Shown here in pieces: positions 4,485-26,441 of a stretch of 44,388 nt of DNA. The notes beneath the pieces were generated by a model. That model saw only the letters and a list, made by a program, of their open reading frames with translations, made no database searches and was not told where the DNA came from. The translations under genes were made by a program, and so were the position numbers. Source of the DNA: an uncultured Flavobacteriales bacterium (GTDB lineage Bacteria; Bacteroidota; Bacteroidia; Flavobacteriales_D; Sanyastnellaceae). Location of the stretch: positions 1 to 44,388 of the forward strand of contig CALJFZ010000031.1 of assembly GCA_938074325.1 (NCBI GenBank), written 5' to 3'. The first letter of the stretch is position 1, and each line of letters opens with the position of its first letter.

Positions 4485-5453
4485 ATGTCCAAACCGCACC
4501 ACACGGCCCGTGATCGAAAGGAGGCTTTGGTCCGTGAGGCCAAAGGACTCGGCTTCGACGCCGTGGGCGTTTCTGCGGCGGGGTTTTTGGAAGCGGAAGC
4601 GGATCGCCTGGAAGAGTGGCTCCGTCGCGGCTACCACGGGGAGATGGGCTACCTCGAACGCAATTTTGATAAGCGATTGGACCCGCGGCTATTGGTTCCC
4701 GGGGCTAAGACCGTGGTGTCACTCCTTTTCAATTACCACACGGAACAGCAGCCAAGTGACCCGGATACTCCTCGGGTTGCGAGCTACGCGCACGGACAAG
4801 ATTATCACTACGTCATCAAGTGGAAGCTCAAGGAGTTGATGAAGTGGGCCCAACGGGAGTGGGGAGCCATTGAGGGACGGGTGTTTGTCGACTCCGCTCC
4901 GGTGCATGAACGGGCCTGGGCGGAGAAAAGTGGCTTGGGATGGGTTGGGAAAAACAGCCTGTTGCTCAACCGCAGCATGGGGAGCTTCTTTTTCATAGCT
5001 GAGCTGATCATCGACGTCGAGCTCGAGCCCGATGCGCCGACGGCGGACCACTGCGGCACATGCACGCGCTGCATTGATGCGTGTCCGACCGGTGCCATCA
5101 TCCAGCCAGGCGTCGTGAACGGCGCCCAGTGCATCAGTTATTTCACCATTGAACTGCGCGGGGCCATTCCAGAGCCGGTGCACGAACACCTATCACCGTG
5201 GGTTTTTGGCTGCGATGTGTGCCAGGATGTATGCCCGTGGAATCGCCATGCCACCCCTCACAATGAACCTCAGTTCACACCCCACCCCGAGCTGTTGAAC
5301 ATGAAGCGGTCGGATTGGGAGGAGATGACCGAGGAGGTTTTCAAAGAGGTGTTCAAGGGGACAGCCGTCAAACGCACCGGATACGAAGGCCTGATGCGCA
5401 ACATGAAGGCCGCATTCACATCACCGCGTACCGGCGGAAACTCGACTCAATGA
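4485..5453 (+). CDS. queG: Epoxyqueuosine reductase QueG
   Basis: QueG is a cobalamin and 4Fe-4S enzyme that reduces epoxyqueuosine to queuosine at position 34 of tRNAs with GUN anticodons. The sequence has the N-terminal DUF1730-type domain, the VDSAPVHER motif with the likely catalytic Asp136, and two iron-sulfur motifs: CGTCTRCIDACP (C190, C193, C196, C200) and CDVCQDVCP (C243, C246, C250), plus C216. The 322-aa length is normal for forms lacking the extra C-terminal HEAT-like domain. The start ATG is two bases after the ruvB stop. The 3' end overlaps the small minus-strand gene by 38 bases. Confidence 0.95.
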   Translation: MSKPHHTARDRKEALVREAKGLGFDAVGVSAAGFLEAEADRLEEWLRRGYHGEMGYLERNFDKRLDPRLLVPGAKTVVSLLFNYHTEQQPSDPDTPRVASYAHGQDYHYVIKWKLKELMKWAQREWGAIEGRVFVDSAPVHERAWAEKSGLGWVGKNSLLLNRSMGSFFFIAELIIDVELEPDAPTADHCGTCTRCIDACPTGAIIQPGVVNGAQCISYFTIELRGAIPEPVHEHLSPWVFGCDVCQDVCPWNRHATPHNEPQFTPHPELLNMKRSDWEEMTEEVFKEVFKGTAVKRTGYEGLMRNMKAAFTSPRTGGNSTQ

Positions 5454-5622
5454 GGTCGGAGTGGAGGTGTTGAAATCGCTGGAGGCACCAAGCCTTGAGG
5501 ACTTTCAAGTCGTCTCCGGCTAGGTGCCGGATGGACTTTTTCAATTCGCGCGCGAAGAGGGCTTTGTTCGGGCTCACTCGGAGCAGTACTTTCTTACACA
5601 GGTCGAGCATGTCTCGGGTCAT
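5416..5622 (-). CDS. Small conserved protein of unknown function
   Basis: A 68-aa basic protein starting MTRDMLDLCKKVLLRVS. The pattern KKVLLRVSPNKxLFxxELKKxIxxL...LKAWCL resembles a family of small uncharacterised Bacteroidota proteins with a VSFDxxLFxKELxKA core; this is recalled similarity, not a search. It would be helical, with no signal peptide or membrane segment. ATG 5622 is preferred; the frame also opens at a TTG at 5643, and ATG 5610 is possible. The gene points against queG and its last 38 bases overlap the queG 3' end; its 5' end lies about 120 bases from the trhO start on the other strand. A function cannot be given. Confidence 0.6.
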   Translation of the reverse strand: MTRDMLDLCKKVLLRVSPNKALFARELKKSIRHLAGDDLKVLKAWCLQRFQHLHSDLIESSFRRYAVM

Positions 5623-5676
5623 TGTCGAGGTTCTCAGTTTCAATTCTCTCTAAAAACGCAGCAAAAGCCGTTATCG

Positions 5677-5684
5677 TACCTTTG
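5677..5684 (+). promoter_or_regulatory. Bacteroidota -7 element upstream of trhO
   Basis: TACCTTTG matches the TAnnTTTG -7 element of the Bacteroidota primary sigma factor. No clear -33 TTG partner is seen. It lies 57 bases before the trhO ATG, leaving a short leader, and this is the only good match between trhO and the small divergent gene. Confidence 0.45.
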
Positions 5685-5741
5685 CGTAACGTTAAACTTT
5701 CTGACCCTCCGCGCTGGAGAGGCACTGTGACTTGTAATCGC

Positions 5742-6782
5742 ATGAAGCAACAACTGCGCAATTTGGTCGACCGGAAGGTGTTATTGGAGCGAATGCAAAA
5801 CGATGAAGAAAATCGCATGACGATTTCTTTCTACCAATACGCGCGCATCCCCAACCCCGCCTTCTTCCGCGACTACTTGTTTTCCCACTGGGATGAGATG
5901 GATGTGAAAGGCCGCACGTACGTGGCTGAAGAAGGCATCAATGCCCAAATCTCGGTTCCTACCTCCCAACTCGATGCCTTCAAGGCTCACTTGTACAGCA
6001 TTGCCTTCCTCGATGGCATTCGGCTGAATTACACCGTCGATGAAGGCAAGTCTTTTTTCAAATTGGCCATCAAGGTGCGCGATAAAATCGTTGCTGACGG
6101 ACTCAACGACGAAGCATTTGATGTCCGAGAAACCGGCGTGCATCTCGATGCCCAGTCGTTCAACGAACTTACCACCAAGGAGGACACCATCCTTATCGAT
6201 ATGCGCAACCACTACGAAAGCGAAGTGGGCCACTTCAAAGGGGCGATCACACCGGATGTAGACACCTTCCGGGAGGAGATTGAACTCGTAGAGAACATGC
6301 TGCAGGGCAAAGAAGACGAGAACATTGTGATGTACTGCACCGGTGGGATTCGATGCGAGAAGGCATCGGCTTGGCTGAAGCACAAAGGATTCCCCAACGT
6401 GCACCAGCTCAACGGCGGCATCATCGAGTACACCCGGCAGGTGAGGGAGCAAGGGCTAGAAAACCGGTTCATCGGCAAGAACTTCGTCTTCGATGAGCGC
6501 TTGGCTGAAAGGATTTCAGACGACGTAATTGCCCACTGTCATCAGTGCGGCACCACCTGCGACGACCACACCAATTGCTCGAACGTGGGCTGCAATTTGC
6601 TGTTCATCCAATGCCCGAAATGCGCCGAAACATTCGAAGGAACGTGCGGGGAACGGTGCCAGGAAATCATCCACCTTCCGGAGGAAGAGCAGCGGGAGTT
6701 GAGAAAGGGCGAGAAGGACAGCGCGCGGATCTTCAACAAAGGACGCTTGCGCGCTGGAGGCAGGGATTGCGCGGACGCTTAG
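5742..6782 (+). CDS. trhO: tRNA U34 hydroxylase / rhodanese-domain protein TrhO
   Basis: TrhO (YceA family) hydroxylates uridine 34 of tRNAs to 5-hydroxyuridine using O2. From ATG 5742 the protein has 346 aa. It has the N-terminal acylphosphatase-like domain (TISFYQYARIPNP; YVAEEGINAQIS), a rhodanese domain with the catalytic loop CTGGIRC (C199 and C205), and a Cys-rich C-terminal tail (CHQCGTTC, CPKCAETF, CGERC) that looks like a metal site. The frame is open back to 5622, but the residues before 5742 match nothing in the family and a -7 promoter element lies in that stretch, so the shorter form is chosen. The stop codon overlaps that of the convergent DUF3299 gene. Confidence 0.93.
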   Translation: MKQQLRNLVDRKVLLERMQNDEENRMTISFYQYARIPNPAFFRDYLFSHWDEMDVKGRTYVAEEGINAQISVPTSQLDAFKAHLYSIAFLDGIRLNYTVDEGKSFFKLAIKVRDKIVADGLNDEAFDVRETGVHLDAQSFNELTTKEDTILIDMRNHYESEVGHFKGAITPDVDTFREEIELVENMLQGKEDENIVMYCTGGIRCEKASAWLKHKGFPNVHQLNGGIIEYTRQVREQGLENRFIGKNFVFDERLAERISDDVIAHCHQCGTTCDDHTNCSNVGCNLLFIQCPKCAETFEGTCGERCQEIIHLPEEEQRELRKGEKDSARIFNKGRLRAGGRDCADA

Positions 6783-7396
6783 GGCGTGTATTCAACCGCC
6801 CCGTCCAAGATGTAATTCATCTGGTACACGTCGTCGGCGTTCAACCGAAATTTTCCGGCAAACGTGAGGCGCTCGTCGGTTTGGTAAACGCGGGGTGATT
6901 TGCCGTCGAAGCGCAAGTCGATGACCGATTCAGGTCCGGCGCCTCCGCAGAAAAAGCAATTTGCAAAAGGGTACCGGCTGAGGACATAAAAATCCTCGTC
7001 CAAATCCACCGGAATCATGTATCCCGTGATGTGCACTTCCTTGCCTTCCAAGCCATTGACGATGCCACCGAAGGTGGGTTTCCAATAGTAGGCGTCCAAC
7101 TCTTCAACGTAGACATCCTTGAACTCCACGTCTTCCAGCATGCGCCAGGTCATTTCCGTGTAGGCTTCTTCTGCTTCAGACGGCGCGTTAGAGTCCGTTG
7201 GAGGCGTTGCATTATTCAACCGCACTTCGGGTAACATGCCAGCGGCCTTGACCGCTGTGGCTGCCCGTTGCCCCTCTTCGGTCGGGTGGCAGTACGAGCT
7301 CAGGTCCATGGCGCTCAATGCCACAATGCCCATGAGGCCAATCCACGAAGCCGATTTGATTTTCGGTGCAGAGGGAGGAGTGGGTTGTGCGCTCAT
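6779..7396 (-). CDS. DUF3299 protein, membrane anchored
   Basis: A 205-aa protein with one N-terminal hydrophobic segment (about 17-31) acting as membrane anchor or signal. After a variable linker comes a domain with the DUF3299 pattern: W84-RMLEDVEF, then KPTFGGIVNGLEGKEVHITGYMIPV, then NCFFCGGAGPESVID (C147, C150). The conserved Cys pair suggests metal or thiol chemistry in the periplasm, but the role is not established. It is the last gene of a three-gene unit; its ATG overlaps the permease stop by four bases (ATGA). Related ABC-plus-DUF3299 cassettes in gammaproteobacteria are, as far as I recall, Zur-regulated and involved in zinc uptake, so a zinc role is a reasonable guess here. Confidence 0.85.
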   Translation of the reverse strand: MSAQPTPPSAPKIKSASWIGLMGIVALSAMDLSSYCHPTEEGQRAATAVKAAGMLPEVRLNNATPPTDSNAPSEAEEAYTEMTWRMLEDVEFKDVYVEELDAYYWKPTFGGIVNGLEGKEVHITGYMIPVDLDEDFYVLSRYPFANCFFCGGAGPESVIDLRFDGKSPRVYQTDERLTFAGKFRLNADDVYQMNYILDGAVEYTP

Positions 7397-8583
7397 TGTG
7401 CTTCAGATAAGGTGCGTGAAGTATCCATTTTGACCGCCGATATGCCCGGTATGGCTGCAGCAATCAACCCGACAAAGATAGCCATTCCTGCCAGCAGCAA
7501 TTCATCCGTCAACACCCCGATATCGGTCCAGTCGTAGCGGAATTTGTCCTCCACCATCTGCGCAAGCGCCACCAAGCCCAGTCGGCTCAGCACCAAACCG
7601 AGCAAGGCCCCGCCTGTGCTGAGGATTCCACCTTCGAGAAGGAGGGAAAGAAATAGTCCTTGGCGGGATCCCCCCATCGTGCGCAGCAAGGCCAACTCGT
7701 ACCGGCGGGAGAGCAAGTTGTCGTAGACCGAAATGAAGATGCTGGCAAAACTGATCAGCATGATGAGCAAGGCAATGGCTTGAAGGGTGTTCATTCCGAT
7801 GCCAAAGTTTTGAGTCAACCGGTTGATTTCAATCGACGGCAAGGCCACCTGCATGTTGGTTTCTCGAATGGTATTGGGGATGGTCAAGACCGCCAGCGGA
7901 TTTCGTTTTTTCAGCAGCACCGCTGTGATCTCGCGGTCTTCTGGCAGGACCGTTTCCCCGTGGCCTTCGTGCACTTCCCAGATGGTGGAGATGTTGCACA
8001 GAAGCAGCTGATCGAGTACGGTGCCGTTGGGTTTCAGGATTCCGACGACCGTGAAGACTTTGTCGGTATGGACGTCGGTTTCGTCTTGCAATCCGTGCGC
8101 ACTGAAGAACTCGTCGCCCACATTCAACCCCGTGCGTTCAGCAACCTGCGCACCGACCACCACTTCAAAACTGGATTCAAATGCCCGCCCCGTGGCCCAC
8201 AAAGCTTCGTAATGCGCGGTGTACGCTTCCGTGCTACCGACGATGCGGAATCCGCGGTAGTTGTCTCCGTATGCCAACGGAATGCCTTCTGCGATGTACG
8301 GGTGACGCATGACTTTTTCCGCATCGGCCAAGCGGATGTTACCTGTTGGGGCATCGACGTGATAGACATTGGCCAGGATCAGCTGAAGCGGACTGCCCTT
8401 GGCTCCCAACACCAAGTCAATGTCCTCAATGTTGCGGTTGAAGGTCGCGCTCAATTGCCTTTCCGAGAGCATCAAGAGGCTTACCAATCCTACACCGAAT
8501 GCCAGCAGCACTAGGCTCAGTGAGGTCTGTAATTTTTTCAGTCCCAAGTTGCGCCAAGCGATGTAGAGCCAGTTCAACTTCAT
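7393..8583 (-). CDS. ABC transporter permease, FtsX/MacB type
   Basis: A 396-aa protein with the topology of the FtsX/MacB/LolE class: one helix near residues 18-40, a large periplasmic domain (about 45-270), then three helices near 275-300, 325-345 and 365-387. The start MKLNWLYIAWRNLGLKKLQT is typical of these permeases. Such proteins do not move substrate through a channel but pass force from the ATPase to the periplasmic side. It overlaps the ATPase gene upstream by four bases and the DUF3299 gene downstream by four, so the three are translationally coupled and should act together. The substrate cannot be read from the sequence. Confidence 0.93.
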   Translation of the reverse strand: MKLNWLYIAWRNLGLKKLQTSLSLVLLAFGVGLVSLLMLSERQLSATFNRNIEDIDLVLGAKGSPLQLILANVYHVDAPTGNIRLADAEKVMRHPYIAEGIPLAYGDNYRGFRIVGSTEAYTAHYEALWATGRAFESSFEVVVGAQVAERTGLNVGDEFFSAHGLQDETDVHTDKVFTVVGILKPNGTVLDQLLLCNISTIWEVHEGHGETVLPEDREITAVLLKKRNPLAVLTIPNTIRETNMQVALPSIEINRLTQNFGIGMNTLQAIALLIMLISFASIFISVYDNLLSRRYELALLRTMGGSRQGLFLSLLLEGGILSTGGALLGLVLSRLGLVALAQMVEDKFRYDWTDIGVLTDELLLAGMAIFVGLIAAAIPGISAVKMDTSRTLSEAQ

Positions 8584-9230
8584 GCCGATTGGGGTTGAGC
8601 GGTGAGTTCGATGCGGTGGGCGTAGCGATCCTTGAGCCGCTGATCGTGCGTGACAATGACCAAGGCCGCTCCCACAGCTGCTGCTTGTTCTTCGAGCAGG
8701 GCAATGACGGCAGATGTGCTGGAGTCGTCTAATGCACTGGTTGGTTCATCTGCCAACACAATGGAAGGACGGTGGATGAGGGCACGTGCAATGCCCGCTC
8801 GCTGCTGTTCCCCGATGCTCAGGTGGCGAGGTCGCTGATGGGCTTTGTGGGCGATGCCCAACTGTTCAAGCATGGCCATGCCCGTGCTTTGGTCGAACGC
8901 CACGCCCTGCAAAAAGGCAGGAATGGCGAGGTTTTCAAGAACGGAAAGGCTTTGAACGAAATGCGACTTCTGGAAGACGATGCCCACGTGCTGACCTCGG
9001 TAGCGATCCCGAGCAGCTTCGGACAGGCTGCCAAGGTCCTGTCCATTGAGTGAGACCGAACCGGATGCGGGCTGCAGCATTCCGCACAGCAGATGCAGCA
9101 GGGTGGTCTTGCCGCATCCAGATTCCCCTAACAGCAGCAACCGTTCGCCGGGTTCGCACTGAACATCTGGAAATGCCAGCAAGGGACCACTAGGGTCGTA
9201 CTGAAAGGTCAAAGCATGGGTCTGAATCAT
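8580..9230 (-). CDS. ABC transporter ATP-binding protein, LolD/MacB type
   Basis: A 216-aa nucleotide-binding subunit with every motif in place: Walker A GESGCGKT (35-42), Q-loop Q87 in VFQKSH, signature LSIGEQQR (137-144), Walker B IVLADEP (157-163), D-loop SALDD, and the switch His in VTHDQR. It belongs to the LolD/FtsE/MacB group, which pairs with FtsX-type permeases such as the one encoded directly downstream with a four-base overlap. It is the first gene of the unit; the 58 bases between its start and the divergent gene at 9289 must hold its promoter, but I find no clear TAnnTTTG on this strand. Confidence 0.95.
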   Translation of the reverse strand: MIQTHALTFQYDPSGPLLAFPDVQCEPGERLLLLGESGCGKTTLLHLLCGMLQPASGSVSLNGQDLGSLSEAARDRYRGQHVGIVFQKSHFVQSLSVLENLAIPAFLQGVAFDQSTGMAMLEQLGIAHKAHQRPRHLSIGEQQRAGIARALIHRPSIVLADEPTSALDDSSTSAVIALLEEQAAAVGAALVIVTHDQRLKDRYAHRIELTAQPQSA

Positions 9231-9288: not shown

Positions 9289-9705
9289 GTGAATTTTCGT
9301 CAACGTTTCCTGCGCTACGGCATTGGTGTCATCATCGGTGTTTTGTTGAGCGCCCTGTTTTTTAGCGGTCGAAGTTGCAATGATTGGCTGCCAGGTAAAC
9401 GCATCAAAGCGCGCATGCAGCTTGAAGGGGTCCAGCCCGACACAGTCCTCCAATGCTTGTTGGATTGCGACGGTCCGACGCAGGCCGATCCCAACCAGTT
9501 GATGCAGTGGTTGCTTGCAGCCGAAATCAATTGGTCCCAGAGTGCCGCCCGGCAGGAGCGACCTTGTTATTTATTTGAGATGCCAGCGGAGTGTCCTTTT
9601 AAGGAACTGACGGTGTGCTTCTCTGAGCACTCCGCCTCGGTGGGCATGCCACGTGTGCGCGAAGCTCAGCCCACTTGCGGTTGCGACGAGGTCAAGGGCG
9701 AATAA
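9289..9705 (+). CDS. Small single-pass membrane protein, DUF4258-like
   Basis: A 138-aa protein starting at GTG, with a membrane helix at about 9-27 and then a soluble domain. The pattern of a short N-terminal helix, then DWLPGKRIKARM, then CLLDC resembles a conserved Bacteroidota family often labelled DUF4258-domain protein (DWLPNKR...), recalled rather than searched. Six cysteines follow the second residue of CLLDC, including CGCDE near the end, so it may bind metal or form disulfides; its function is unknown. It stands divergent from the ABC cassette, and its last 14 bases overlap the 3' end of the sugar dehydrogenase gene on the other strand. A TAnnTTTG box sits directly in front of the start. 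Confidence 0.75.
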   Translation: MNFRQRFLRYGIGVIIGVLLSALFFSGRSCNDWLPGKRIKARMQLEGVQPDTVLQCLLDCDGPTQADPNQLMQWLLAAEINWSQSAARQERPCYLFEMPAECPFKELTVCFSEHSASVGMPRVREAQPTCGCDEVKGE

Positions 9706-11266
9706 CGCTCAACTTTCCCCGCACGGGATTCGGACTGGATGCACTCCACGCTTCAATGACGTAGGTACCGGCATTCATTCCATTGGTGTTCCAGGTATAT
9801 GGGGCTTCAGCTCCGGTCAATTCTGCATCGTGCACCACGCGACCGCTGATGTCGACAATGCGCAAGCGGGTGAGAAATGCGTCGGCTCCCATGTCGAGGC
9901 TGACATCGTTTCCAATGACGACTGGGTTGGGCGTAAAGCGCAAAGCATCCGCGAGTTCACCGCCGCCAGTCTGATCGGCAGGGTCGTAAACCAACTTATA
10001 GATGTTGAGGCGGGTGCAGAGGTACAATTCACCCTGGTTATTTTCACTGAAGCCAAACCGGGTCTCATCCCAAGGGACGAAGCCGCCGGGCACTTGGATG
10101 TCCAACGGTGCATCGATCCACGTGCCATCTGCTTGTTCTGTGAGGGCCCAGAATTTCACATCGTAAAAGCCACACGCATCGGTGAAGATGTAGCTGCCGT
10201 ATAGCGTTGGGATTTCCGTGCCACGGTACCGGTATCCGCCGATGACCGAACACCAGCCGTTGTCGTGCGGATAGGAGAAAATGGGCAGTTCCAATGTTCC
10301 ATTGGGATCGCAGTCGACGACTGGCTCGTAACACATCGGTCCTTCCATGAGGCGCCATCCATAATTGAGCCCTCCCGTGGATGTGGCGGATTCCATACTC
10401 ACCTCTTCCCAGTCGACTTCACCGACATCGCCAATGAATTTGTCGCCGGTAAGGCGATCGAAACTCCACCGCCACGGGTTCCGAAATCCGTACGCCCAAA
10501 TTTCATCCAATGCTTCGTCGTTGCCCACGAAGGGGTTGTCTTCGGGAACCGTGTACGGCGCCAAGCCATTGACGTCAATGCGCAAGAGTTTGCCGAGCAG
10601 CGTTTGAAGGTTTTGTCCGTTGCCGATCGGTCCGTGGTCGTCTCCACCGCTGCCTCCACCGGTATCGCCCGTACCGGTTCCGCCGCCGTCGCCGGTGCTG
10701 ATGTACAAGTAACCATCAAGGGGACCGAAGTGCAATTGGCCACCGTTGTGACCGCGGGCTGGCTGGACCAATTCCAGCACTTCGAACCACGTTTCCGTAT
10801 CAGCCACAGTGTGGTCTTCATTGGTGCCGAAGCAAACCAAGCGTTCGTCGATGAAGGTTCCGCTGCCATCGGGCCGGTAGCCGTTGTAGATGACGTAGAA
10901 GAGGCCGTTGTTTTCAAAATCCGGATCGAGGATCAAGTCGTTCAAACCTTGCTCGCTCATGATGCCATAGTCGCACAAGTCGAGACCGGTTGTGCTCAGA
11001 TCGAGGAAGGGCTCGTCCCGGATTTCGCCGGTCTCCTCGTTGTACCACATAACCAATCCGCTGTGGCACACGATGAGCAAATTCGTTTCGTCCGCCGCGT
11101 GGGTCGCAGGCCGCACCGAGACGGGCCACTCAGCCGCCACCAGTCGTTCGCCCACAATGGCCTCGGGAGCGGTGCTTTGTCCGATGGACCACAGTGAGCT
11201 CAATACGGCAACAATGGCAAGAAGGACGGAACGTCCGCTGGGATGGAGGGCATAATGTGACGGCAT
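9692..11266 (-). CDS. PQQ-type sugar dehydrogenase with T9SS sorting domain
   Basis: A 524-aa secreted protein. A signal peptide ends near GQSTA. The main part is a soluble aldose/glucose dehydrogenase-type propeller (GSDH family): HNGGQLHFGP, YLYISTGDGGG, LLRIDVNG, GFRNPWRWSFD and IGDVGEVDWEEV are its landmarks. Such enzymes use PQQ and Ca2+ to oxidise sugars and give electrons to a carrier such as cytochrome c. The last 80 or so residues (FTPNPV...LRIVDISGRVV...GTYVIEA) are a T9SS type A sorting domain, so it should be moved across the outer membrane. ATG 11266 is chosen because it begins the signal peptide; an upstream start at 11314 would add residues unlike one. It diverges from the multiheme cytochrome gene. 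Confidence 0.88.
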   Translation of the reverse strand: MPSHYALHPSGRSVLLAIVAVLSSLWSIGQSTAPEAIVGERLVAAEWPVSVRPATHAADETNLLIVCHSGLVMWYNEETGEIRDEPFLDLSTTGLDLCDYGIMSEQGLNDLILDPDFENNGLFYVIYNGYRPDGSGTFIDERLVCFGTNEDHTVADTETWFEVLELVQPARGHNGGQLHFGPLDGYLYISTGDGGGTGTGDTGGGSGGDDHGPIGNGQNLQTLLGKLLRIDVNGLAPYTVPEDNPFVGNDEALDEIWAYGFRNPWRWSFDRLTGDKFIGDVGEVDWEEVSMESATSTGGLNYGWRLMEGPMCYEPVVDCDPNGTLELPIFSYPHDNGWCSVIGGYRYRGTEIPTLYGSYIFTDACGFYDVKFWALTEQADGTWIDAPLDIQVPGGFVPWDETRFGFSENNQGELYLCTRLNIYKLVYDPADQTGGGELADALRFTPNPVVIGNDVSLDMGADAFLTRLRIVDISGRVVHDAELTGAEAPYTWNTNGMNAGTYVIEAWSASSPNPVRGKLSVIRP

Positions 11267-11283
11267 GAATCTACTTTGCAGGC

Positions 11284-11299
11284 TAACTTTGCAAAGATA
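11284..11299. promoter_or_regulatory. Two abutting -7 elements of a divergent promoter
   Basis: TAACTTTG (11284-11291, plus strand) is followed with no gap by CAAAGATA (11292-11299), which reads TATCTTTG on the minus strand. Both match TAnnTTTG. The plus element serves the cytochrome gene (ATG 11313, 21 bases on), the minus element the dehydrogenase gene (ATG 11266, 25 bases on). Two polymerases could hardly sit here at once, so the genes may compete or share control. Confidence 0.6.
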
Positions 11300-11312
11300 C
11301 CAATCCACTTCC

Positions 11313-13256
11313 ATGAACCGCCGCGCTTACATTGCCCTCTTCTTGCCGTTAGTGGCCTTTGGCGTTGGTCAACTGTTCACGGGTGCGCAGGACCCCCATC
11401 AACGGTATGGCAAAGACGACGCCGAGTGGACACGGTGGCGCATGGGCGAACTGTGCACGGAAGAAGGGGTGTATTTCACGGGTTCGGGGAATTGCGTGAA
11501 TTGCCATGCTCCGGACCCCAACGGGCATGCATTGGTGGATGAAAACGGCGCGACCGTCAGTCCGGTCAGCGACTGGCAGGCGACCCTCATGGCCAACAGC
11601 GCCCGCGACCCGTTTTGGCAGGCCAAAGTCGACCACGAAGGCCTTGTGAATCCCACGCACCGAGAATCAATCGAAAACTTGTGCACCGCGTGCCACGCGC
11701 CCCAAGGCTACCACGAGGCGCACATGACCGGGAACGCCGGACCCAACGGCTACACCCTCGAGGACCTGCTGGACGATGAATTGGGATTGGATGGTGTCGG
11801 TTGTACCGCGTGCCATGGCATTGACAACGACAACCTCGCCTCCCGCCACAACGGCGACCTGCCCATCAACGAAGAAAACGTCGCCTGGGGCGGTTTCGAA
11901 AACCCGTGGGACGGCCTCATGAGTGGCCAAACAGGATTCATCCCGGCGTACGGAGAGCATATGCGCACGAGTGAGGTGTGCGCGAGTTGCCACTCATTGT
12001 ACACCCACACCCAGGACTTGGAGGGGGAAGAGACCGGTGAGGTGTTCTTTGAGCAAACCACGTATTTGGAGTGGGTCAACTCCGCCTTCAATGCGGAAAA
12101 TGTCCAATGCCAGACGTGCCACATGCCACTTGTAGAGGGCGGAGCCATTGCAGCCACCCAGCCGAACTGGCTGTTCCCACAGCGCTTTGGCAAGCACCAT
12201 TTAGTAGGTGGCAATGCGTTCATGCTCAAACTCATGCGGGACAACGCGGTGCAGCTCAGCCTCAGCGCTTCACCGACCCAATTCGATTCCACGATTGCTC
12301 GAACCGTGGCGTCTTTGCAGCGTGAAACAGCTCGATTGGAGGTTCAGCAATTGGCCTCCGAAACCGGCGAGTGGGCTTTTGCTGTGGAGGTTGAGAACTT
12401 GGCCGGTCACAAATTCCCCAGTGGTTATCCAGCGCGTGTCGCCTTCCTGGAATTCGTGCTGACCGATGGCCAATCCGATACCCTGTTCCACAGCGGACGC
12501 TGGTCCGAAGACGAGGGGATTGCAGGCAGAGACGATGAATGGGAGCCGCATTGGAACGAAATCACGTCCGAAGACCAAGTGCAGATCTACGAATTGGTCA
12601 TGGGGGATGTGAGCGGTGCAAACACCCAAGTGCTGGAGCGAGCGGACATCATTCTAAAAGACAACCGCTTGGTTCCCCGTGGATTTTCCACCCTGCACCC
12701 CGTCTATGATACCGTGCAGGTTGGGCCCATGGCGGCGTTGGATTTGGATTTCAACCGCCGAAACGACGAGGAAGGCTCTGGAACCGACCGCTTGATTTAC
12801 CGCGTCCAAGCCGACCCGAGTGTTTCCAGCGTGGAAGCCACCGTGACCCTTCACTACCAGGCAGTGCCTGCCAAATGGGTCAGTGCCTTGTTCGAATATT
12901 CGGACCAAAGCGACCGCATTGCAGCGTTTGAATCCATGTACAATGCGGCCGACCGAACACCAGTGGTGGTCGCGAGCAAAGCGGCGAAAGGCTGGCCGGG
13001 ATTCGATCCAGAAGCTTCGGATTGGCGGGTTGCGCCCAACCCCGTTGCGGCGGGAGATGCCTTGCGCTTGATTCCTGCGGGCACAGAGCAGCCGGTGGAA
13101 ATTCGTTTGATTGACATGCGCGGACGGGTGATTCGCACCTTGGACTTGGACGAAGCGTTAGGGGGGCACAACGTGGCAGATTTGGAGGCTGGAGCGTACC
13201 TGCTCCACCTCGTATTTGAAGAAAGCCAACAAAGCATTCGTTGGTTAAAGAACTGA
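11313..13256 (+). CDS. Five-heme cytochrome c with T9SS sorting domain
   Basis: A 647-aa exported cytochrome. A signal peptide covers about residues 1-25. Five CxxCH heme c motifs lie at 61-65, 124-128, 164-168, 223-227 and 266-270, in a cytochrome c554-like arrangement, with further His in KHHLVGG that could be distal ligands. The middle part has the GHKFPSGYP motif seen after heme domains in other multiheme proteins. The end (WRVAPNPVAAGD...IRLIDMRGRVI...GAYLLHLVF) is a T9SS type A sorting domain. The protein should therefore be exposed on or released from the cell surface. ATG 11313 follows the -7 element at 11284; the frame opens earlier at 11265, but that would run through the promoter. 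Its divergent neighbour is a T9SS-sorted sugar dehydrogenase. Confidence 0.9.
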   Translation: MNRRAYIALFLPLVAFGVGQLFTGAQDPHQRYGKDDAEWTRWRMGELCTEEGVYFTGSGNCVNCHAPDPNGHALVDENGATVSPVSDWQATLMANSARDPFWQAKVDHEGLVNPTHRESIENLCTACHAPQGYHEAHMTGNAGPNGYTLEDLLDDELGLDGVGCTACHGIDNDNLASRHNGDLPINEENVAWGGFENPWDGLMSGQTGFIPAYGEHMRTSEVCASCHSLYTHTQDLEGEETGEVFFEQTTYLEWVNSAFNAENVQCQTCHMPLVEGGAIAATQPNWLFPQRFGKHHLVGGNAFMLKLMRDNAVQLSLSASPTQFDSTIARTVASLQRETARLEVQQLASETGEWAFAVEVENLAGHKFPSGYPARVAFLEFVLTDGQSDTLFHSGRWSEDEGIAGRDDEWEPHWNEITSEDQVQIYELVMGDVSGANTQVLERADIILKDNRLVPRGFSTLHPVYDTVQVGPMAALDLDFNRRNDEEGSGTDRLIYRVQADPSVSSVEATVTLHYQAVPAKWVSALFEYSDQSDRIAAFESMYNAADRTPVVVASKAAKGWPGFDPEASDWRVAPNPVAAGDALRLIPAGTEQPVEIRLIDMRGRVIRTLDLDEALGGHNVADLEAGAYLLHLVFEESQQSIRWLKN

Positions 13257-13286
13257 TAAACAACACGCTGTATGTAGGGCATATTG

Positions 13287-13303
13287 TTTAGAACGATTCT
13301 AAA
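13287..13303. promoter_or_regulatory. 17-bp perfect palindrome upstream of TonB receptor
   Basis: TTTAGAA-CGA-TTCTAAA is a perfect inverted repeat of 7-base arms about a 3-base centre, 65 bases before the receptor start. Its size and A/T-rich arms are like Fur-family operators, which would suit an iron receptor. Which regulator binds is not shown. Confidence 0.5.
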
Positions 13304-13368
13304 TTACCCCATTTATGGGATTGCTGCTGGCGAGCAGCAGGTGCACCTTTGGACCTGCATTTTGCCCC

Positions 13369-15609
13369 ATGTACCGATTCACTCTTTCGCTGATTTTGAT
13401 TGTGCTTTGCACCGCTGAGGTGTGCGCACAAGATTCTGCGCCATTGAGTGAGGATTCCATCTCAGCGATGCTTTCTCAATGGCACGCCTTGCCCGAAGCG
13501 TCCGTAGAAACAGTCGGACTTGGGGCGGGTGCGCGGGGCATGGATGAAGTACCTGGAGCGCTTCATGTTATTTCCCCTGCTGAACTTGAGCGGTATGCCT
13601 TTACCGATCCGTTGCGGGTTTTGCGTGCCGTAAGTGGGGTCAACATCCAAGAAGAGGAGGGATTTGGTTTGCGCCCCAATATTGGTTTGCGTGGATCCGG
13701 TTCCGAACGAAGCGCGCGCATCACCTTGATGGAGGACGGCGTCCTCATGGCCCCAGCGCCTTACACGGCCCCGGCGGCGTATTATTTCCCATCCATTGCT
13801 CGGATGCAATCGATTGAAGTGCTGAAGGGAAGCAGCCAAATTGCCTTTGGCCCCCAGACCGCAGGGGGAGCCATCAATTTGGTCACGGCGCCCATCGATG
13901 AGAATCAGCCCGCTCTCGTTTACAGAGCTGAGCGAAGTGGATTTGGAGGACATCTCCAACACCTTCGTTGGACGGAACAGTGGGATGGACAGGCCGGCGT
14001 CTGGGGCATTCAAGTGGAAGGACTTCAGTTTGGAAGCAATGGCTTCAAGCAACTGTCTTCGGGCTTGCCGACCGGCTTTGCCAAATCGGATGGATTGGTC
14101 AAGCTTCGTTGGTCGGCTTCCGAACAACGGCGCATTCAACAATCCTTCCAAGTGAAAGCGGGGGTGGTCAACGAGTTGAGCCACGAAACGTACGCCGGGT
14201 TGAGTGAAGCCGATTTTGAGGAGAATCCGTACCAACGCTACACAGCTTCTGAGCGCGATGCCATGGAGGCTCAACAAAACCAGGCAGTTTTGCGGCACGA
14301 AGTGGAAGTTTCAGATCACTGGTCATTTGAGACGGACGTCTACCGCACGCGCTTCCACCGCAATTGGTACAAATTGGACAAGTACCAAGATGCTTCAGGG
14401 GAGAAGATGAGCCTCACGTCCTTGTACGAGACCGGTGCTACGGAGCTGCTGCAATCGGAGACAGCAGAAGGAGCTGCACTGCTACTCAAAGCAAACAACC
14501 GCGGCTATGGCGCGCAGGGCATTCAGCACCGGGGCACATGGAAATTTGGATCCTCCTTGTCGAACCAAATTGTTTACGGAGCCCGGTTGCACGAAGACTG
14601 GGCGGACCGTTTCCAATGGCGCGATGCCTACCGCATCGCCAGCGGCCAAATGGCCCTTGTGGAGGCTGGAACACATGGGAGTGCCGGAAACAGAATCGAT
14701 GCGGCACGTGCGTTTGCCGGCTTTGTGCGAGCCACGTTACGCTTCGACGCTTGGACGCTGACGCCTGGCTTGCGCTCTGAGCACATGGTGTTTGAGCGGC
14801 AGGACTTCGGATCGGACTACAATCGACTGAATTCACCCGATGGACGTTCTAATCCGGTGAAGGTTTGGTTGCCGGGCATCGGTGTGACCTACGAGGTTCC
14901 AAGTGGAGACCACCTTTTCCTCGGAGTGCACCGCGGATTCATTCCGCCAGGCAGTGCGCCCAACACAGTGGCCGAGACAAGCTTGAATGCGGAGTTGGGC
15001 TTCCGGTGGGGCCGTGAACACAGCGCCGGTCAGTTGGTCGTCTTCCACAACGCATACGACGATTTGCTGGGTTCTGACCTGACGGCAAATGGAGGCCTTG
15101 GAACGGGCGATCAGTTCAATGGCGGTGCTGCTGTGACCAGTGGTGTTGAGTGCGAATGGGCCGGTGAATTGGCACCGAACGCTCAACGCATCGCGTTGCC
15201 GTTGCGCCTGACCTACACGTACACTCAAGCACGCTTTACCAGCGCATTTGAAAGCAACTTTGGACCGTGGGCCTCGGTGGAACAAGGTGACTACTTGCCC
15301 TACCTCTCACCGCACCAGGGCAATGCACAGTTGTCATTGATTCGGGGAAAGCACGCATTGGAATGCAACGCACGTTATGCTGCGGCCATGCGCATTGAGG
15401 CCGGTCAAGGTGCCCTCCAATCGGGTGAGTCGACCGACGCCTTGACGGTGTTGGATGTCGTATTGAGAAGCCAATTGGACGAGCGCATGAATGTGTATGT
15501 GGGTGTCAACAACGTGTTCAATACAGCGGCGGTTGTGGCCATGCGACCAGCGGGACTTCGTCCTAATATGCCGAGGATGCTACGAATGGGGCTTCAGGTT
15601 ACCCTGTAA
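13369..15609 (+). CDS. TonB-dependent outer-membrane receptor, FecA-like
   Basis: A 746-aa outer-membrane receptor. The signal peptide ends at VCAQD. The plug domain has EVPGALHVISPAELERY, VLRAVSGVNIQEEEG, LRPNIGLRGSG, ITLMEDGVLMAPAPYTAP, and IEVLKGSSQIAFGPQTAGGAINLVT. This set is close to the FecA (ferric citrate type, COG4772) group. The 22-strand barrel ends in MLRMGLQVTL, with a terminal hydrophobic beta-signal. There is no CarboxypepD-like N-terminal extension and no SusD partner, so it is not a SusC-type sugar receptor. ATG 13369 begins the signal peptide; the frame is open back to 13315. A palindrome 65 bases upstream suggests metal-responsive control. The gene ends five bases from the convergent proline dehydrogenase gene. 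Confidence 0.92.
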   Translation: MYRFTLSLILIVLCTAEVCAQDSAPLSEDSISAMLSQWHALPEASVETVGLGAGARGMDEVPGALHVISPAELERYAFTDPLRVLRAVSGVNIQEEEGFGLRPNIGLRGSGSERSARITLMEDGVLMAPAPYTAPAAYYFPSIARMQSIEVLKGSSQIAFGPQTAGGAINLVTAPIDENQPALVYRAERSGFGGHLQHLRWTEQWDGQAGVWGIQVEGLQFGSNGFKQLSSGLPTGFAKSDGLVKLRWSASEQRRIQQSFQVKAGVVNELSHETYAGLSEADFEENPYQRYTASERDAMEAQQNQAVLRHEVEVSDHWSFETDVYRTRFHRNWYKLDKYQDASGEKMSLTSLYETGATELLQSETAEGAALLLKANNRGYGAQGIQHRGTWKFGSSLSNQIVYGARLHEDWADRFQWRDAYRIASGQMALVEAGTHGSAGNRIDAARAFAGFVRATLRFDAWTLTPGLRSEHMVFERQDFGSDYNRLNSPDGRSNPVKVWLPGIGVTYEVPSGDHLFLGVHRGFIPPGSAPNTVAETSLNAELGFRWGREHSAGQLVVFHNAYDDLLGSDLTANGGLGTGDQFNGGAAVTSGVECEWAGELAPNAQRIALPLRLTYTYTQARFTSAFESNFGPWASVEQGDYLPYLSPHQGNAQLSLIRGKHALECNARYAAAMRIEAGQGALQSGESTDALTVLDVVLRSQLDERMNVYVGVNNVFNTAAVVAMRPAGLRPNMPRMLRMGLQVTL

Positions 15610-22551: not shown

Positions 22552-23435
22552 CAATCCATGTGAATTTCGGCTACGTTCACCACGTATCCGTTGGCATCCG
22601 ACAACACGGCCAACACGGTCGCGTTATCAACCACCCATGTTTCGTCCCATGTGAACGTCGCAGACTGTGTGGCCACGTCACCGGCAGATGCGCCGCCTGC
22701 GACGTCACCAAACCCGATGCCCAGTGCTCCGTGCACGGAGCCCCTCAGCACGTGGTTGAATTCATAGTCTTCGACGACCTCCGGGTCAGCCGAGTAGTCC
22801 AACTGATAATCGATTATGTGCGACTCCAGAATGAGCCAGGCGACTTGAATAGGGCCTGCCACATCTTCGTAAAAGGTCCCGTGCAGGTGGAGGTTCAAAT
22901 GCCCGTTGGCTGGGACCCACTCGTAATCGTACTGCAATCCCACAGCGGGGTCAATGGCCATCTCATTCACGGCCTGCTCTTCCCATTGGGCTGGCGGCCA
23001 AAATGCCCCGACTCCGCCTATGCGGTTGATGCGGCCGAGGGGATTGGCTTGAAAGTCCAATTGGTCCCAGAAGACATCCCCCTCTTCGGTGGTCCAATCC
23101 GTATCGAAATAACCGTCGTCCGTGACTGCGAGGTTGCCTGCGTGGATGGCCATGACACTTACGCGGTCGGCATAGTTCGCAGCGATGTCTTCCGCGATGA
23201 CTCCTGCTGCTGGGCAGTTGCCGCATTGGTGCGCGGTAAAGTCCTCGACGAGTACACGCTTAACGGCATCGCCTTGCGGGAGGGGTTCAAAATTAGGCGC
23301 CTCACCGTACACCTCCTCGAGGTAATTCGTGGTGATGGGGATGACAGGGTCTTCAATTTCATCGCATCCAATCGCGCCCACAGAAAGGGCGAAGAGGATG
23401 ACTCCGTAGAAAAGCGGACGTTGCATTGTGGTCAT
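22551..23435 (-). CDS. Omp28-related thioredoxin-fold lipoprotein
   Basis: A 294-aa lipoprotein. The lipobox VGAIGC puts the lipid at Cys24, and the acidic residues right after it (DEIED) are of the kind linked in Bacteroidota with export to the cell surface. The Omp28 domain follows, with the thioredoxin-like active site QCGNCP (C71, C74), EDFTAHQ before it and VSVMAIHAGN after it. The second half is a beta-rich domain. The start overlaps the stop of the upstream thioredoxin-T9SS gene (ATGA), so the two, and the PorT-like protein after it, are one transcript. It probably does thiol chemistry at the outer membrane. Confidence 0.88.
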   Translation of the reverse strand: MTTMQRPLFYGVILFALSVGAIGCDEIEDPVIPITTNYLEEVYGEAPNFEPLPQGDAVKRVLVEDFTAHQCGNCPAAGVIAEDIAANYADRVSVMAIHAGNLAVTDDGYFDTDWTTEEGDVFWDQLDFQANPLGRINRIGGVGAFWPPAQWEEQAVNEMAIDPAVGLQYDYEWVPANGHLNLHLHGTFYEDVAGPIQVAWLILESHIIDYQLDYSADPEVVEDYEFNHVLRGSVHGALGIGFGDVAGGASAGDVATQSATFTWDETWVVDNATVLAVLSDANGYVVNVAEIHMD

Positions 23436-24868
23436 GAACGGACAAAGGATTGGCTGACGGTGCGGTTGCCGTCGGTCAGGGTCAAAATGTAAAATCCAAC
23501 TTCCAGATGTTCGAGGTCCAAGGTCCAGGTGTGGCCAGTGCTTTTGCGCTGTTCGCTGTGGATCAATTTGCCGTGGGCATCCCGGATGTCAATGGATTGG
23601 AGAGCTCGGGCGGAGAGGCCTTGGAGCGTGATACGGCCTGCAGTCGGGTTCGGGTACAACGTGACGGGGAGAGCGGACGTCTCGGCGACGCTCATGTTGA
23701 TTTCGTTCACCAGGAACCCCTTATTCAGGTCGGTCCAATTCCCGTTGTTGTTCAATGTGAAAATGGTGTTGATGTTCTCACCTCCTTCATTGAATGTACT
23801 GATGTCGCAGGCGACGTCGCCGCCGTTACCGATGAGGTCGTAGATGGTAAAGTTGTAGCAGCCTGTTGCGCCAAGGTTTACCCACCATTCGTAATCGGTC
23901 TGGTTTTCGGTCATGTCGCCAAATTCAATTCCGGCCACTTCATCGCCTGAATCGTCCGTGATCGACCAGCGGTTATCCCCCGGCATGTTGTCCGTGGTGA
24001 AGCGCACACGCACCAACGAAGTCGCGATTTCACTCGTCAGGTTCATGGTTTCGGAGACGCTGTTGTTGCCATCGTAATCATCTGATGAAGTCACATCGAT
24101 GAAGAACATGGATGTGGAAGGAAAGATTGCTTCGCCCATGTCGATGATCGCCATTTCGTAAGTGTCCAACTCACCGGCCCAATCGTAGGTGAGCAACTCG
24201 GTACCAAACAGCGTGCTCGCTGTGAGGGTGAACGCAGTCAATGGCTCTGTGCCTTGGTTCATGACGCGAACCGAGAGGGGGGTTGGCGTTTCCGGGCAAG
24301 TCCGGTTGGGTCCCAAGTATTCGATGAGGCTTACATCGTTGGGAGAACTGGCTGGAGCGCAATCGCCGGACTGGAAGTAATTGATGTGTGCCGCTGCCGT
24401 CGCCTGTCCGGTTTGTTGAATGAGGCGATTCGGGCATACCGTGAAGATGGTGGGGTAGTAAGCGCATTCGTACAGGTCGAAGATGTTCCCGCCGTTATCG
24501 GCAATGGGGTAGTCTACGCCCGCTGTCCAGTCACCCCATGTGTTGGTGCCTGTACCGTGCAGGTCTTCATCGGTGGTGTTGTCATCCGACTCGATGAACA
24601 GAATGCGCACTTCGTTACTGCCCTCGGGGCCGTGAGCTTCATAAATCTCTTCGAAAACGCCGCTGGTGTGGTAGTTCCAGCAAGGGCCGCACCACGTGGC
24701 CGAAAAGTCGATGATGACGGCATAGCCAGAATCGAGGTAACTGTACAGATTGTGTTCTTCACCGGCAATGTCTGTGACGGTAAAGTCGGGCGCTACACTG
24801 CCGTTTGGCAACTGAGCAAAACCCATTGTTGCAAAGCAGAGGGTTAAGAGGGCAAGGAGGTGTTTCAT
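23432..24868 (-). CDS. Thioredoxin-domain protein with T9SS sorting domain (copy 1)
   Basis: A 478-aa secreted redoxin. A signal peptide (1-18, MGFAQ) is followed by a TlpA/AhpC-type thioredoxin domain with the active site ATWCGPCW (C60, C63) and, further on, DEDLHGTGT, AYYPTIFTVCPN with a cis-Pro-like position. Then come an Ig-like domain (about 190-280), a second beta domain with WSITDDSGDEV and GCYNFTIYDLIGNGG, and a T9SS type A sorting domain (YPNPTAGRITLQG...GFYILTLTDGN). The protein is closely similar along its whole length to the one encoded next upstream. It overlaps the Omp28 gene by four bases. It should act outside the outer membrane as a disulfide-active protein. Confidence 0.88.
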   Translation of the reverse strand: MKHLLALLTLCFATMGFAQLPNGSVAPDFTVTDIAGEEHNLYSYLDSGYAVIIDFSATWCGPCWNYHTSGVFEEIYEAHGPEGSNEVRILFIESDDNTTDEDLHGTGTNTWGDWTAGVDYPIADNGGNIFDLYECAYYPTIFTVCPNRLIQQTGQATAAAHINYFQSGDCAPASSPNDVSLIEYLGPNRTCPETPTPLSVRVMNQGTEPLTAFTLTASTLFGTELLTYDWAGELDTYEMAIIDMGEAIFPSTSMFFIDVTSSDDYDGNNSVSETMNLTSEIATSLVRVRFTTDNMPGDNRWSITDDSGDEVAGIEFGDMTENQTDYEWWVNLGATGCYNFTIYDLIGNGGDVACDISTFNEGGENINTIFTLNNNGNWTDLNKGFLVNEINMSVAETSALPVTLYPNPTAGRITLQGLSARALQSIDIRDAHGKLIHSEQRKSTGHTWTLDLEHLEVGFYILTLTDGNRTVSQSFVRS

Positions 24869-24965: not shown

Positions 24966-26441
24966 TTACTTCAATGTCACGCGCATGGTCGTGGTCTGAC
25001 CACCAGCGTTCAAAGTCACGAGGTAGATGCCCGCAGTTACACCGTTGAAGTCCAACACGTGGTTGTGCTCACCGGCTGGCAAAGTGCCCAAGTTGTCGTT
25101 GATCACCTGCTCACCTACGAGGTTGTAAACAACCAATGAAGCTTCAGCAGCTTCAGCAGTGGTGAATTGCAAGTTGGTTTGGTCAACGAATGGGTTCGGG
25201 AATACGCGGGTAACGTCGCTGAGGGTCTGCTCCTCAACACCAACGTTCACAGAAGTTACGCTCATGCCAGCTGATTCAGCTTCGTAGCCGTAAGAACCGT
25301 TGTAATCGTAGATGGTGCTGATGTACACGATGTCGTCATTGTAAGACTTAACAGTGCAGTAGCCATCGTTTGATCCCCAGATAGAACCGTTGATGCCGTC
25401 GCCGTATGCGTCGGTAATCTCGAACGCGTAGCACCCAGTAGCAGGAACGCTTACCCACCACTCAAATACGTCACCAGCAGCACCTGCAATTGAACCAGGC
25501 GCAACGGCTTCAACAGCAGAGCCCATGTCGTCGGTGATGCTCCATCCGATTTCTTCTGGCCAGTTGTCTACCATGATTTCAACGTGGATCAAGGACGTAG
25601 CGTCCGTGGCCAACTCAACCGCACCCATTGAGGTGTTGTTGACGTTGTTGTCATCAGAAGAAGTGATGGTGATGTCGAAGTTGGTGTCAGCGTCAAACGT
25701 TGCTGTTCCGAGGTCGACGTTGGTGATGCCGTAGGTCTCGAGCTGACCCATCCAGTTGTAAGAAAGGATGCTAGAACCGCCAGCAGACACTTCGATGGTA
25801 GCAGCGGTCAAGTTGTCGAGACCGAGGTTCATCATGTCCACAGACAAGTTCACTGGCTCACCAGGGCAAGCAGTGGTTCCACCTGTGTAACCCAACAATG
25901 CTGGATCGTTTGGCAATGACGCTGCCGCGCAATCGTTTGCACTGAAGATGGCGTGGTGCTCATCTGCACTCGCCTGTCCAGATTCCGTCAAAACACGGTT
26001 AGGGCAGATAGTGTAAATGGTAGGGTAGTAAGCGCCAGCGTAATCGTCGAAGATGGAACCGCCATTGTCGATGATGGGGTAAGTAGTACCGGTTACCCAG
26101 TCACCTTGTGTGGCGGTACCTGTACCGTGCAAATCTTCATCGGTAGTGGTGTCGTCCGCTTCGATGAAGAAGATGCGCAATTCGTCGGTTCCGTCAGGGC
26201 CGTACTCTTCGTACAATTCTTCAAAAACACCGCTGGTGTGGTAGCTCCAGCAAGGGCCGCACCAAGTAGCAGAGAAGTCAACGATGACTTTTTTTCCCTC
26301 GTCGAGGAGGTCGTAGAGGTTGTGCTCCACGCCATTGATGTCAGTGGCGGTGAAGTCAGGCGCAATGCTGCCGTCAGGCAACTGTGCGAACGATGCTGTT
26401 CCGACCATCAGAGCAGCGATCAAAGCGTAAATGTGCTTCAT
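24966..26441 (-). CDS. Thioredoxin-domain protein with T9SS sorting domain (copy 2)
   Basis: A 491-aa paralog of the downstream redoxin with the same plan: signal peptide (ends TASFAQ), thioredoxin domain with ATWCGPCW (C61, C64), DEDLHGTGT and AYYPTIYTICPN, an Ig-like domain, a beta domain with WSITDDMGSAV and GCYAFEITDAYGDGI, and a T9SS type A sorting domain (FPNPFVDQTNLQF...AGIYLVTLNAG). Unlike its neighbours it has its own -7 element and its own terminator, so it is probably a single-gene transcript. By eye its codons favour GCT, GGT, GTT and ACT along with C-ending AAC, TAC, TTC and GAC, more than the flanking genes do, which often marks high expression. Its target is unknown. Confidence 0.9.
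   Translation of the reverse strand: MKHIYALIAALMVGTASFAQLPDGSIAPDFTATDINGVEHNLYDLLDEGKKVIVDFSATWCGPCWSYHTSGVFEELYEEYGPDGTDELRIFFIEADDTTTDEDLHGTGTATQGDWVTGTTYPIIDNGGSIFDDYAGAYYPTIYTICPNRVLTESGQASADEHHAIFSANDCAAASLPNDPALLGYTGGTTACPGEPVNLSVDMMNLGLDNLTAATIEVSAGGSSILSYNWMGQLETYGITNVDLGTATFDADTNFDITITSSDDNNVNNTSMGAVELATDATSLIHVEIMVDNWPEEIGWSITDDMGSAVEAVAPGSIAGAAGDVFEWWVSVPATGCYAFEITDAYGDGINGSIWGSNDGYCTVKSYNDDIVYISTIYDYNGSYGYEAESAGMSVTSVNVGVEEQTLSDVTRVFPNPFVDQTNLQFTTAEAAEASLVVYNLVGEQVINDNLGTLPAGEHNHVLDFNGVTAGIYLVTLNAGGQTTTMRVTLK

Follow-up and report, generated by a model that had tools for sequence, protein, structure and literature searches.

The window, as we call the whole 44,388-nucleotide stretch of DNA that was analysed, carries two divergent genes whose inner starts, at 11266 on the reverse strand and 11313 on the forward strand, leave 46 bp between them. 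The mechanically called starts of these two ORFs overlap, and the inner starts were adopted. The reverse-strand gene (9692-11266) encodes a 524-residue six-bladed propeller with the GSDH fold, of an HHIP-like class, and the forward-strand gene (11313-13256) encodes a 647-residue pentaheme c-type cytochrome with a T9SS tail. The initial annotation had described a PQQ-type dehydrogenase gene divergent from that of a five-heme cytochrome; we recovered both ORFs with domain models above their cut-offs, confirming that a GSDH-fold protein and a five-heme cytochrome are encoded as a divergent pair. Signal peptides were judged by eye for both proteins, and the propeller N-terminus is signal-peptide-like. 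The next gene downstream of the cytochrome gene (13315-15609) matches a TonB-dependent receptor profile.

The gap between the two genes contains facing TAACTTTG/CAAAGATA boxes at 11284-11299. By its likeness to the sigma-A consensus TAnnTTTG, as given in the accessible portion of PMC9723704, TAACTTTG (11284-11291, forward strand) is a -7-box-like element directed towards the cytochrome gene; the -7-box-like element TATCTTTG (11292-11299, reverse strand) is directed towards the GSDH gene and is present in the window and in 18 of the 18 pair loci examined. The facing-box motif occurs once in the window and 14 times in the 326,853 bp of loci L075-L093, and all 14 occurrences lie between the two genes, given the inner starts. 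Most relatives retain the boxes although their spacing varies, which bears out the earlier proposal of a shared divergent promoter region. No sigma-70 type promoter was found in 11150-11420, and the stretch 17-28 bp upstream of the window's -7 boxes shows no clear TTG.

The cytochrome family and the T9SS tails

The five heme sites of the cytochrome, all on the forward strand, are CVNCH (C61-H65, 11493-11507), CTACH (C124-H128, 11682-11696), a second CTACH (C164-H168, 11802-11816), CASCH (C223-H227, 11979-11993) and CQTCH (C266-H270, 12108-12122). The two Cys and the His of each site are invariant in alignment A2, and five CxxCH motifs are present in 77 of 77 relative ORFs (76 full-length and one cut by a contig end). 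The protein matches PF22113, the Pfam domain II/IV model, with 38.5 bits against a cut-off of 30. Such a cytochrome had been called uncommon, which fails within its own taxonomic family, where matches at E<=0.001 occur in 106 of the 114 genomes, a handful being weak (as in G038 and G105); phylum-wide, the distribution is patchy (15/296 at E<=1e-30). One locus, L059, carries a second cytochrome gene.

Residues 573-647 of the cytochrome (13029-13253, forward strand) form a T9SS type A sorting domain that scores 28.1 bits with TIGR04183, over the curated cut-off of 23, and the tail model matches 59 of the 61 cytochromes in A2, window included, at E<=0.01. In the propeller, the type A-like tail spans residues 445-505 (9752-9934, reverse strand) and stays below the cut-offs, with 17 of 23 bits for TIGR04183 and 18.2 of 27 bits for the Pfam model. 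The claim that both proteins carry the sorting domain holds for the cytochrome and is less certain for the propeller, three orthologues of which (L061, L062 and L063) pass at 29.8, 30.5 and 23.3 bits. Twelve of the 17 propellers in alignment A3, window included, match the tail model at E<=0.01, and an unpaired propeller paralogue (L160) has no T9SS tail match. SprA is encoded within the window (2365 bits), and the genome has two cytochrome c assembly-family matches. Heme c is attached in the periplasm.

The propeller and its cofactor pocket

The propeller matches PF07995 over residues 103-360 with 100.4 bits (cut-off 25), and its best relatives in the PDB are HHIP, followed by 3a9g and 2g8s. 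The cofactor pocket was judged from alignments alone. His173 (10748-10750, reverse strand) aligns with the catalytic His147 of E. coli YliI (precursor numbering), and Arg262-Asn263 (10478-10483, reverse strand) align with Arg214-Asn215 of the YliI quinone pocket; all three residues are conserved across the whole class of GSDHs to which the window's protein belongs. At the place of the Arg-Ile-Arg of YliI, the propeller has Thr402-Arg403-Phe404 (10055-10063, reverse strand), so that the canonical Arg-x-Arg near the C terminus is absent. This partial loss of the PQQ pocket is consistent across both alignments and extends to the class, in which none of 11 aligned members, window included, has the motif. 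Arg403 itself is invariant in the 17 rows of A3 but is replaced by Ser or Lys in G028 and the two sequences from genus g21. The motif is kept in E. coli YliI, in two GSDHs of the same genome (L001 and L002) and in L070, L163 and L167. One arginine of the PQQ-binding motif is sGDH Arg406. The PQQ-binding arginine named in the accessible part of PMC6881789 is sGDH Arg408.

Two further comparisons are less telling. At the place of sGDH Lys377, which pairs with the C-7 carboxyl of PQQ, the two alignments put Gly and Cys, respectively, in the propeller, and L001 and L002 carry Ser and Gly there, so this Lys does not separate GSDH classes. Likewise, TIGR03606 gives the propeller 35.8 bits against a cut-off of 434.55, a weak test given that L070, of the Arg-x-Arg type, also falls below it (220 bits). 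The description of the protein as a PQQ-type dehydrogenase stands for the fold only; His173, Arg262 and Asn263 are retained and the Arg-x-Arg is missing, which leaves PQQ dependence and sugar oxidation not established.

PqqE scores above its cut-off in none of the 114 genomes, a result that leaves the absence of PQQ synthesis unproven since no control genome passed either; the best sub-threshold match (84.3 of 381.35 bits) belongs to a set that we read as other radical-SAM proteins. We also considered the TonB-dependent receptor as a PQQ importer or a component of the pair and set it aside. It scores slightly higher with E. coli FecA (67 bits) than with PqqU (51 bits), which does not decide between them, and L057, L060, L061, L063 and L064 have no receptor match after the cytochrome gene.

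Conservation of the pair

Among the 39 same-family genomes that have a GSDH of the window class, 28, from six genera, place it head-to-head with the cytochrome gene. The arrangement thus extends beyond the genus, and rare co-occurrence, which would have counted against the pair, is refuted within this family. The other 11 genomes, all of genus g21, have the GSDH without an adjoining cytochrome in the places listed. Every one of the 18 GSDH copies in 79 named-genome loci is divergent from, and adjoins, a cytochrome gene. The gene neighbourhood of the pair, with its ABC transporter, proline dehydrogenase-like and peptidase-like genes, is conserved as well, indicating that the adjacency is partly inherited synteny.

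A second pairing, of an Arg-x-Arg GSDH of another class with a cytochrome of the same family, is found in G014 and G015. Its cytochromes form a separate clade in the tree (SH-aLRT 100 for each of P1 and P2), and the facing boxes are absent. In G014, the GSDH and cytochrome genes stand side by side with an FG-GAP/UnbV_ASPIC gene. A GSDH gene lies about 14-16 kb from the family cytochrome in G044, G047 and G048, and the second pairing may stem from such looser linkage. In the fetched flanks of the 60 more distant cytochrome loci L094-L153, ORFs running in from locus ends included, no GSDH was found. FG-GAP/UnbV_ASPIC propellers occur near the family cytochrome in 20 of these 60 loci, against a background of 2-21 UnbV_ASPIC matches per genome in ten genomes.

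Possible roles and known systems

The reading that we favour, to which we give an even chance, is that the two proteins form a co-regulated surface redox pair in which electrons pass from the propeller to the cytochrome. Both proteins would be secreted by Sec, the five hemes would be attached to the cytochrome in the periplasm, and T9SS would then carry both proteins, the cytochrome probably as holoprotein, out of the cell to be held at or released from its surface. There, the propeller may oxidise a small organic molecule, its cofactor being either externally acquired PQQ or a different one, and the cytochrome would hand the electrons on to an external acceptor. Head-to-head conservation, the second pairing, the facing boxes, the T9SS tails, SprA and the cytochrome c assembly matches argue for this reading, as do the FG-GAP/UnbV_ASPIC neighbours elsewhere and a TIGR02604 match in two of 17 propellers. 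Against it stand the missing Arg-x-Arg, HHIP as the best solved match, the PqqE result, the g21 genomes, the distant loci that have no GSDH, the conserved synteny, the absence of facing boxes from the second pairing and the latter's possible origin in looser linkage.

More tentatively, the pair may be one instance of modular surface electron transfer in Bacteroidota, in which a single family of T9SS-exported pentaheme cytochromes is served by interchangeable T9SS-exported propellers: an Arg-x-Arg GSDH, an FG-GAP/UnbV_ASPIC protein, or an HHIP-like GSDH such as the window's, whose cofactor site would differ from those of the known PQQ enzymes.

We consider it unlikely, if still a serious rival, that the propeller is an HHIP-like binding or scaffold protein and no oxidoreductase, and that redox activity lies in the cytochrome alone, which would work as a surface reductase or store electrons and might reduce a metal before TonB-dependent uptake. 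The absence of Arg-x-Arg from 11 of 11 aligned proteins and the HHIP match suggest as much, and the cytochrome's commonest other neighbour, FG-GAP/UnbV_ASPIC, is also propeller-type with no known redox role; the adjacent receptor, a little closer to FecA than to PqqU, fits the metal variant, whereas five loci have no receptor match after the cytochrome. However, the class keeps His173, Arg262 and Asn263, whereas the Arg-Asn pair is replaced by His-Asp in HHIP, and two genomes build the same kind of pair with an Arg-x-Arg GSDH. Fungal CcSDH, moreover, is described in the accessible text of PMC4133262 as PQQ-dependent although several canonical residues are missing.

It is rather improbable that the two proteins are neighbours merely by inherited gene order and act alone: the conserved flanking genes, the unaccompanied g21 propellers and the 60 of 60 distant cytochromes with no GSDH in their fetched flanks are what this would predict, yet the facing boxes are maintained despite changing spacing, and a second pairing involves a different GSDH class. 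An ordinary periplasmic dehydrogenase-cytochrome pair with weak or unused tails accords with the sub-threshold propeller tail and periplasmic heme attachment and is very improbable in view of the tails of 59 of 61 cytochromes and three orthologous propellers and the presence of SprA.

Secreted multiheme cytochromes of Bacteroidota are already published, and the pairing of a GSDH propeller with a pentaheme cytochrome was not found in the open-access literature searched. The accessible text of PMC11495043 predicts that Saprospiraceae and other Bacteroidota of activated sludge secrete multiheme cytochromes and proposes extracellular electron transfer; that text describes no partner protein and does not contain "type IX", "PQQ" or "sorbosone". 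The pair hints at a little-described route for moving electrons outside the cell in some Bacteroidota. If the favoured reading is true, a group of this phylum oxidises an extracellular compound and passes the electrons through a T9SS-delivered cytochrome without a porin conduit for export, and two questions become open to experiment: whether folded heme proteins can go through SprA, and the function of bacterial HHIP-like GSDH and UnbV_ASPIC propellers.

With the six-bladed PQQ sugar dehydrogenases (E. coli Asd/YliI 2g8s, Pyrobaculum 3a9h and Acinetobacter sGDH 1c9u), the propeller shares the GSDH fold, the catalytic His and the Arg-Asn; it differs from them in the missing Arg-x-Arg, the T9SS-like tail and the lack of Lys at the K314 place (also lacking in L001 and L002), and from YliI in having Glu for the Pro of the HGP motif. 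With HHIP, a vertebrate signalling antagonist and not an enzyme, it shares GG-x-x-YRG and FGED-type blocks in place of the RIRD block of YliI. The ExtKL and MccSep cytochromes and cytochrome c552 (5ze8) are remote profile kin of the cytochrome in parts of its heme region and in a GHKFPSGYP block, and Tyr372 aligns with the MccSep residue printed X, taken to be its Sec. The ExtKL model NF040886 matches 56 of the 61 cytochromes in A2 at E<=0.01, but the window's cytochrome, with five hemes and a T9SS tail, scores 17.4 bits, far under the equivalog cut-off of 250. OmcA/MtrC have ten hemes where it has five, and it reaches 12.7 of 209.3 bits with TIGR03507; of the models for that group, it passes PF22113 alone. 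PVC-type CxxCH proteins join a propeller and a heme domain in one chain. Their heme-binding model TIGR02604 matches, at E<=0.01, the two of 17 propellers in A3 noted above. L061 scores no more than 24.1 bits where the cut-off is 122.2, and in the present pair the propeller and the hemes lie on separate chains.

The divergent pair and its promoter region

The window belongs to a 2.15 Mb draft genome (59 contigs, 88% complete) of a T9SS-bearing member of the Bacteroidota. Its close relatives found by name mostly carry Flavobacteriales in their titles, and isolate names (MED692, ALOHA) suggest a sea water origin for some of them. The initial annotation had described two divergent redox genes sharing one promoter region, and both observations are borne out. 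A propeller gene (11266-9692, minus strand, 524 aa) encodes a protein that a domain scan assigns to the GSDH family over residues 103-360. It lies back to back with a cytochrome gene (11313-13256, plus strand, 647 aa), whose product contains five CxxCH motifs and is matched by the MtrC/MtrF domain II/IV model. The ORF listing gives longer, overlapping starts for both genes; we adopted the inner ATGs because the N termini then appear, by eye, signal-peptide-like, and the resulting intergenic gap is 46 bp.

This gap contains TAACTTTG followed directly by CAAAGATA, which form two facing -7-like boxes; the flavobacterial sigma-A box is of the type TAnnTTTG according to PMC9723704. When 18 pair loci are taken together with the window, all 19 have the minus-strand box and 15 have a plus-strand TAnnTTTG (it is missing from L084, L086, L091 and L093); the facing arrangement is kept in most pair loci. 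Facing motifs with a gap of 0-10 bp number one in the window and 14 in the 326,853 bp of loci L075-L093, and every one of them lies between the two genes, given the inner starts. Because the box-to-box spacing is 0, 3 or 5 bp, a pair of promoters is a better fit than a single rigid operator. No -33 element could be made out. Beside the pair, genes for an ABC permease, an ATPase and a 205-aa protein without a family match (6779-9230) are syntenic in many genera.

Conservation of the pair and other cytochrome neighbours

Among 114 same-family genomes, the cytochrome query finds a match in 106 and the GSDH query in 91, many of the latter being weaker paralogues or tail-only matches. Window-type GSDHs, defined as scoring over 500 bits with the listed places compared by hand, occur in 39 genomes and lie head-to-head with the cytochrome in 28 of these. 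In the window's genus, 19 of 22 genomes have the head-to-head pair (all except G051, G054 and G055), which is also found in five other genera (G016, G028, G029, G042, G043, G045, G046, G047 and G049); a contig end cuts one pair gene in G050, G056 and G064. The 11 of 39 genomes with a window-type GSDH lacking an adjacent cytochrome all belong to genus g21: the listed cytochrome is on another contig in 9, G100 has no cytochrome match, and places were not listed for G109. At the g21 locus L067, the space that the cytochrome would occupy holds, according to a domain scan, a TonB receptor that includes a carboxypeptidase-like domain, together with a DUF4249 gene (5306-8637); L065 and L066 have like-sized ORFs there, the domain assignment coming from L067 only. 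In 79 loci from named genomes, all 18 GSDH copies are divergent and next to a cytochrome. Since the flanking genes are also syntenic, the 28 cases represent few evolutionary events. The pair is conserved in other genomes and is probably co-regulated. Genus g14 has two pentaheme cytochromes in tandem beside the GSDH (L058:318-4214 and L059:9855-13728).

A different GSDH (PF07995, 243 and 246.7 bits) is divergent beside another cytochrome of the family in G014 and G015; it has Arg-x-Arg and T9SS tails over the cut-off (33.6 and 24.1 bits). In a tree of 94 cytochromes, built by a quick method with no bootstrap, SH-aLRT support is 100 both for a group of the window-type paired cytochromes and for a group of the G014/G015 ones; the G014/G015 group falls within an 11-row set (99) that contains no window-type paired cytochrome. 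This pairing looks like a separate association, with two reservations: the facing boxes are absent from its gap, and it may derive from a looser linkage, since a GSDH lies, non-adjacent, about 14-16 kb from a family cytochrome in G044 (C28), G047 (C1, near 1.45-1.46 Mb) and G048 (C2, near 1.39-1.40 Mb).

No GSDH was found in the fetched flanks of 60 more distant cytochrome loci (L094-L153), several of which are short contigs. Here, FG-GAP/UnbV_ASPIC proteins with T9SS tails (e.g., L109:4915-7740, L142:11829-14567 and L127:5168-7903) are the commonest cytochrome-family neighbours outside the window's clade. Their cluster lies within three genes in 20 of the 60 loci, directly adjoining the cytochrome in 18 of the 20. 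FG-GAP, UnbV_ASPIC and Por_Secre_tail were all over cut-off in 8 of 8 scanned loci (7 of the 20 plus L070 of G014, at 11628-14366), the remaining 13 being assigned by BLAST clustering only. With 2 to 21 UnbV_ASPIC matches per genome in 10 genomes searched, chance would perhaps give 1-2 per hundred loci, a rough estimate set against related, non-independent loci. The gene order at L070 is GSDH, cytochrome, FG-GAP/UnbV_ASPIC. Related small proteins are encoded two genes from the cytochrome at L117:13152-13769, L136:13161-13781, L143:5676-6320 and L149:13272-13889; that of L136, the one of the four scanned, gave copper-binding (plastocyanin/azurin) and T9SS-tail matches just below cut-offs.

Predicted surface sorting and the propeller pocket

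T9SS tails had been assigned to both proteins. The assignment holds for the cytochrome, whose C terminus scores 28 bits against the type A model (cut-off 23), but the window propeller falls below at 17 bits, while its orthologues L061, L062 and L063 pass with 29.8, 30.5 and 23.3. At E<=0.01, the model matches 59 of 61 aligned cytochromes and 12 of 17 aligned propellers, window included. SprA itself is encoded in the window (32472-39965, 2365 bits). Two tandem thioredoxin-like proteins (23432-24868 and 24966-26441) also have tails over the cut-off (38.5 and 45.1 bits), which suggests surface-located thiol redox proteins.

Of the readings considered, a surface electron path is the likeliest: electrons would pass from the propeller to the cytochrome, with sugar as a candidate substrate and PQQ as a candidate cofactor. 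A serious rival is that the propeller is an HHIP-like non-enzyme: human HHIP is the best solved match of its profile. The PQQ-binding residues are there in part. His173, Arg262 and Asn263 align with His147, Arg214 and Asn215 of E. coli YliI, but counterparts of YliI Arg341 and Arg343 are absent and Pro235 is replaced by Glu, states common to all 11 aligned class members. Five unpaired HHIP-like paralogues show the same pattern, with the His and Arg-Asn present but no Arg pair; that pair is present in L001 and L002, other GSDHs of the same genome as the window. Lys 314 of YliI says little, because it is absent from the window propeller and also from L001 and L002. None of the 114 same-family genomes gave a PqqE match above the cut-off, in a search with no positive control.

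Comparison with known systems

PMC6881789 describes how fungal AA12 and sGDH contact PQQ. According to PMC4133262, several canonical PQQ residues are missing from both CcSDH and HHIP, and CcSDH is still PQQ-dependent; PQQ therefore stays a candidate cofactor of the propeller. On the cytochrome side of the proposed electron path, two cytochrome c assembly-family matches lie on one contig of the window genome, and the cytochrome family at E<=1e-30 was found in 15 of 296 genomes across the phylum, two from the window's family, with at most 4 candidates per genome scored. Secreted multiheme cytochromes have already been predicted for Bacteroidota in published work (PMC11495043). By profile search, cytochrome c552 (5ze8) and MccSep (9wt8) are remote kin of the pentaheme cytochrome, and its tail matches the T9SS domains of gingipains and other proteins.
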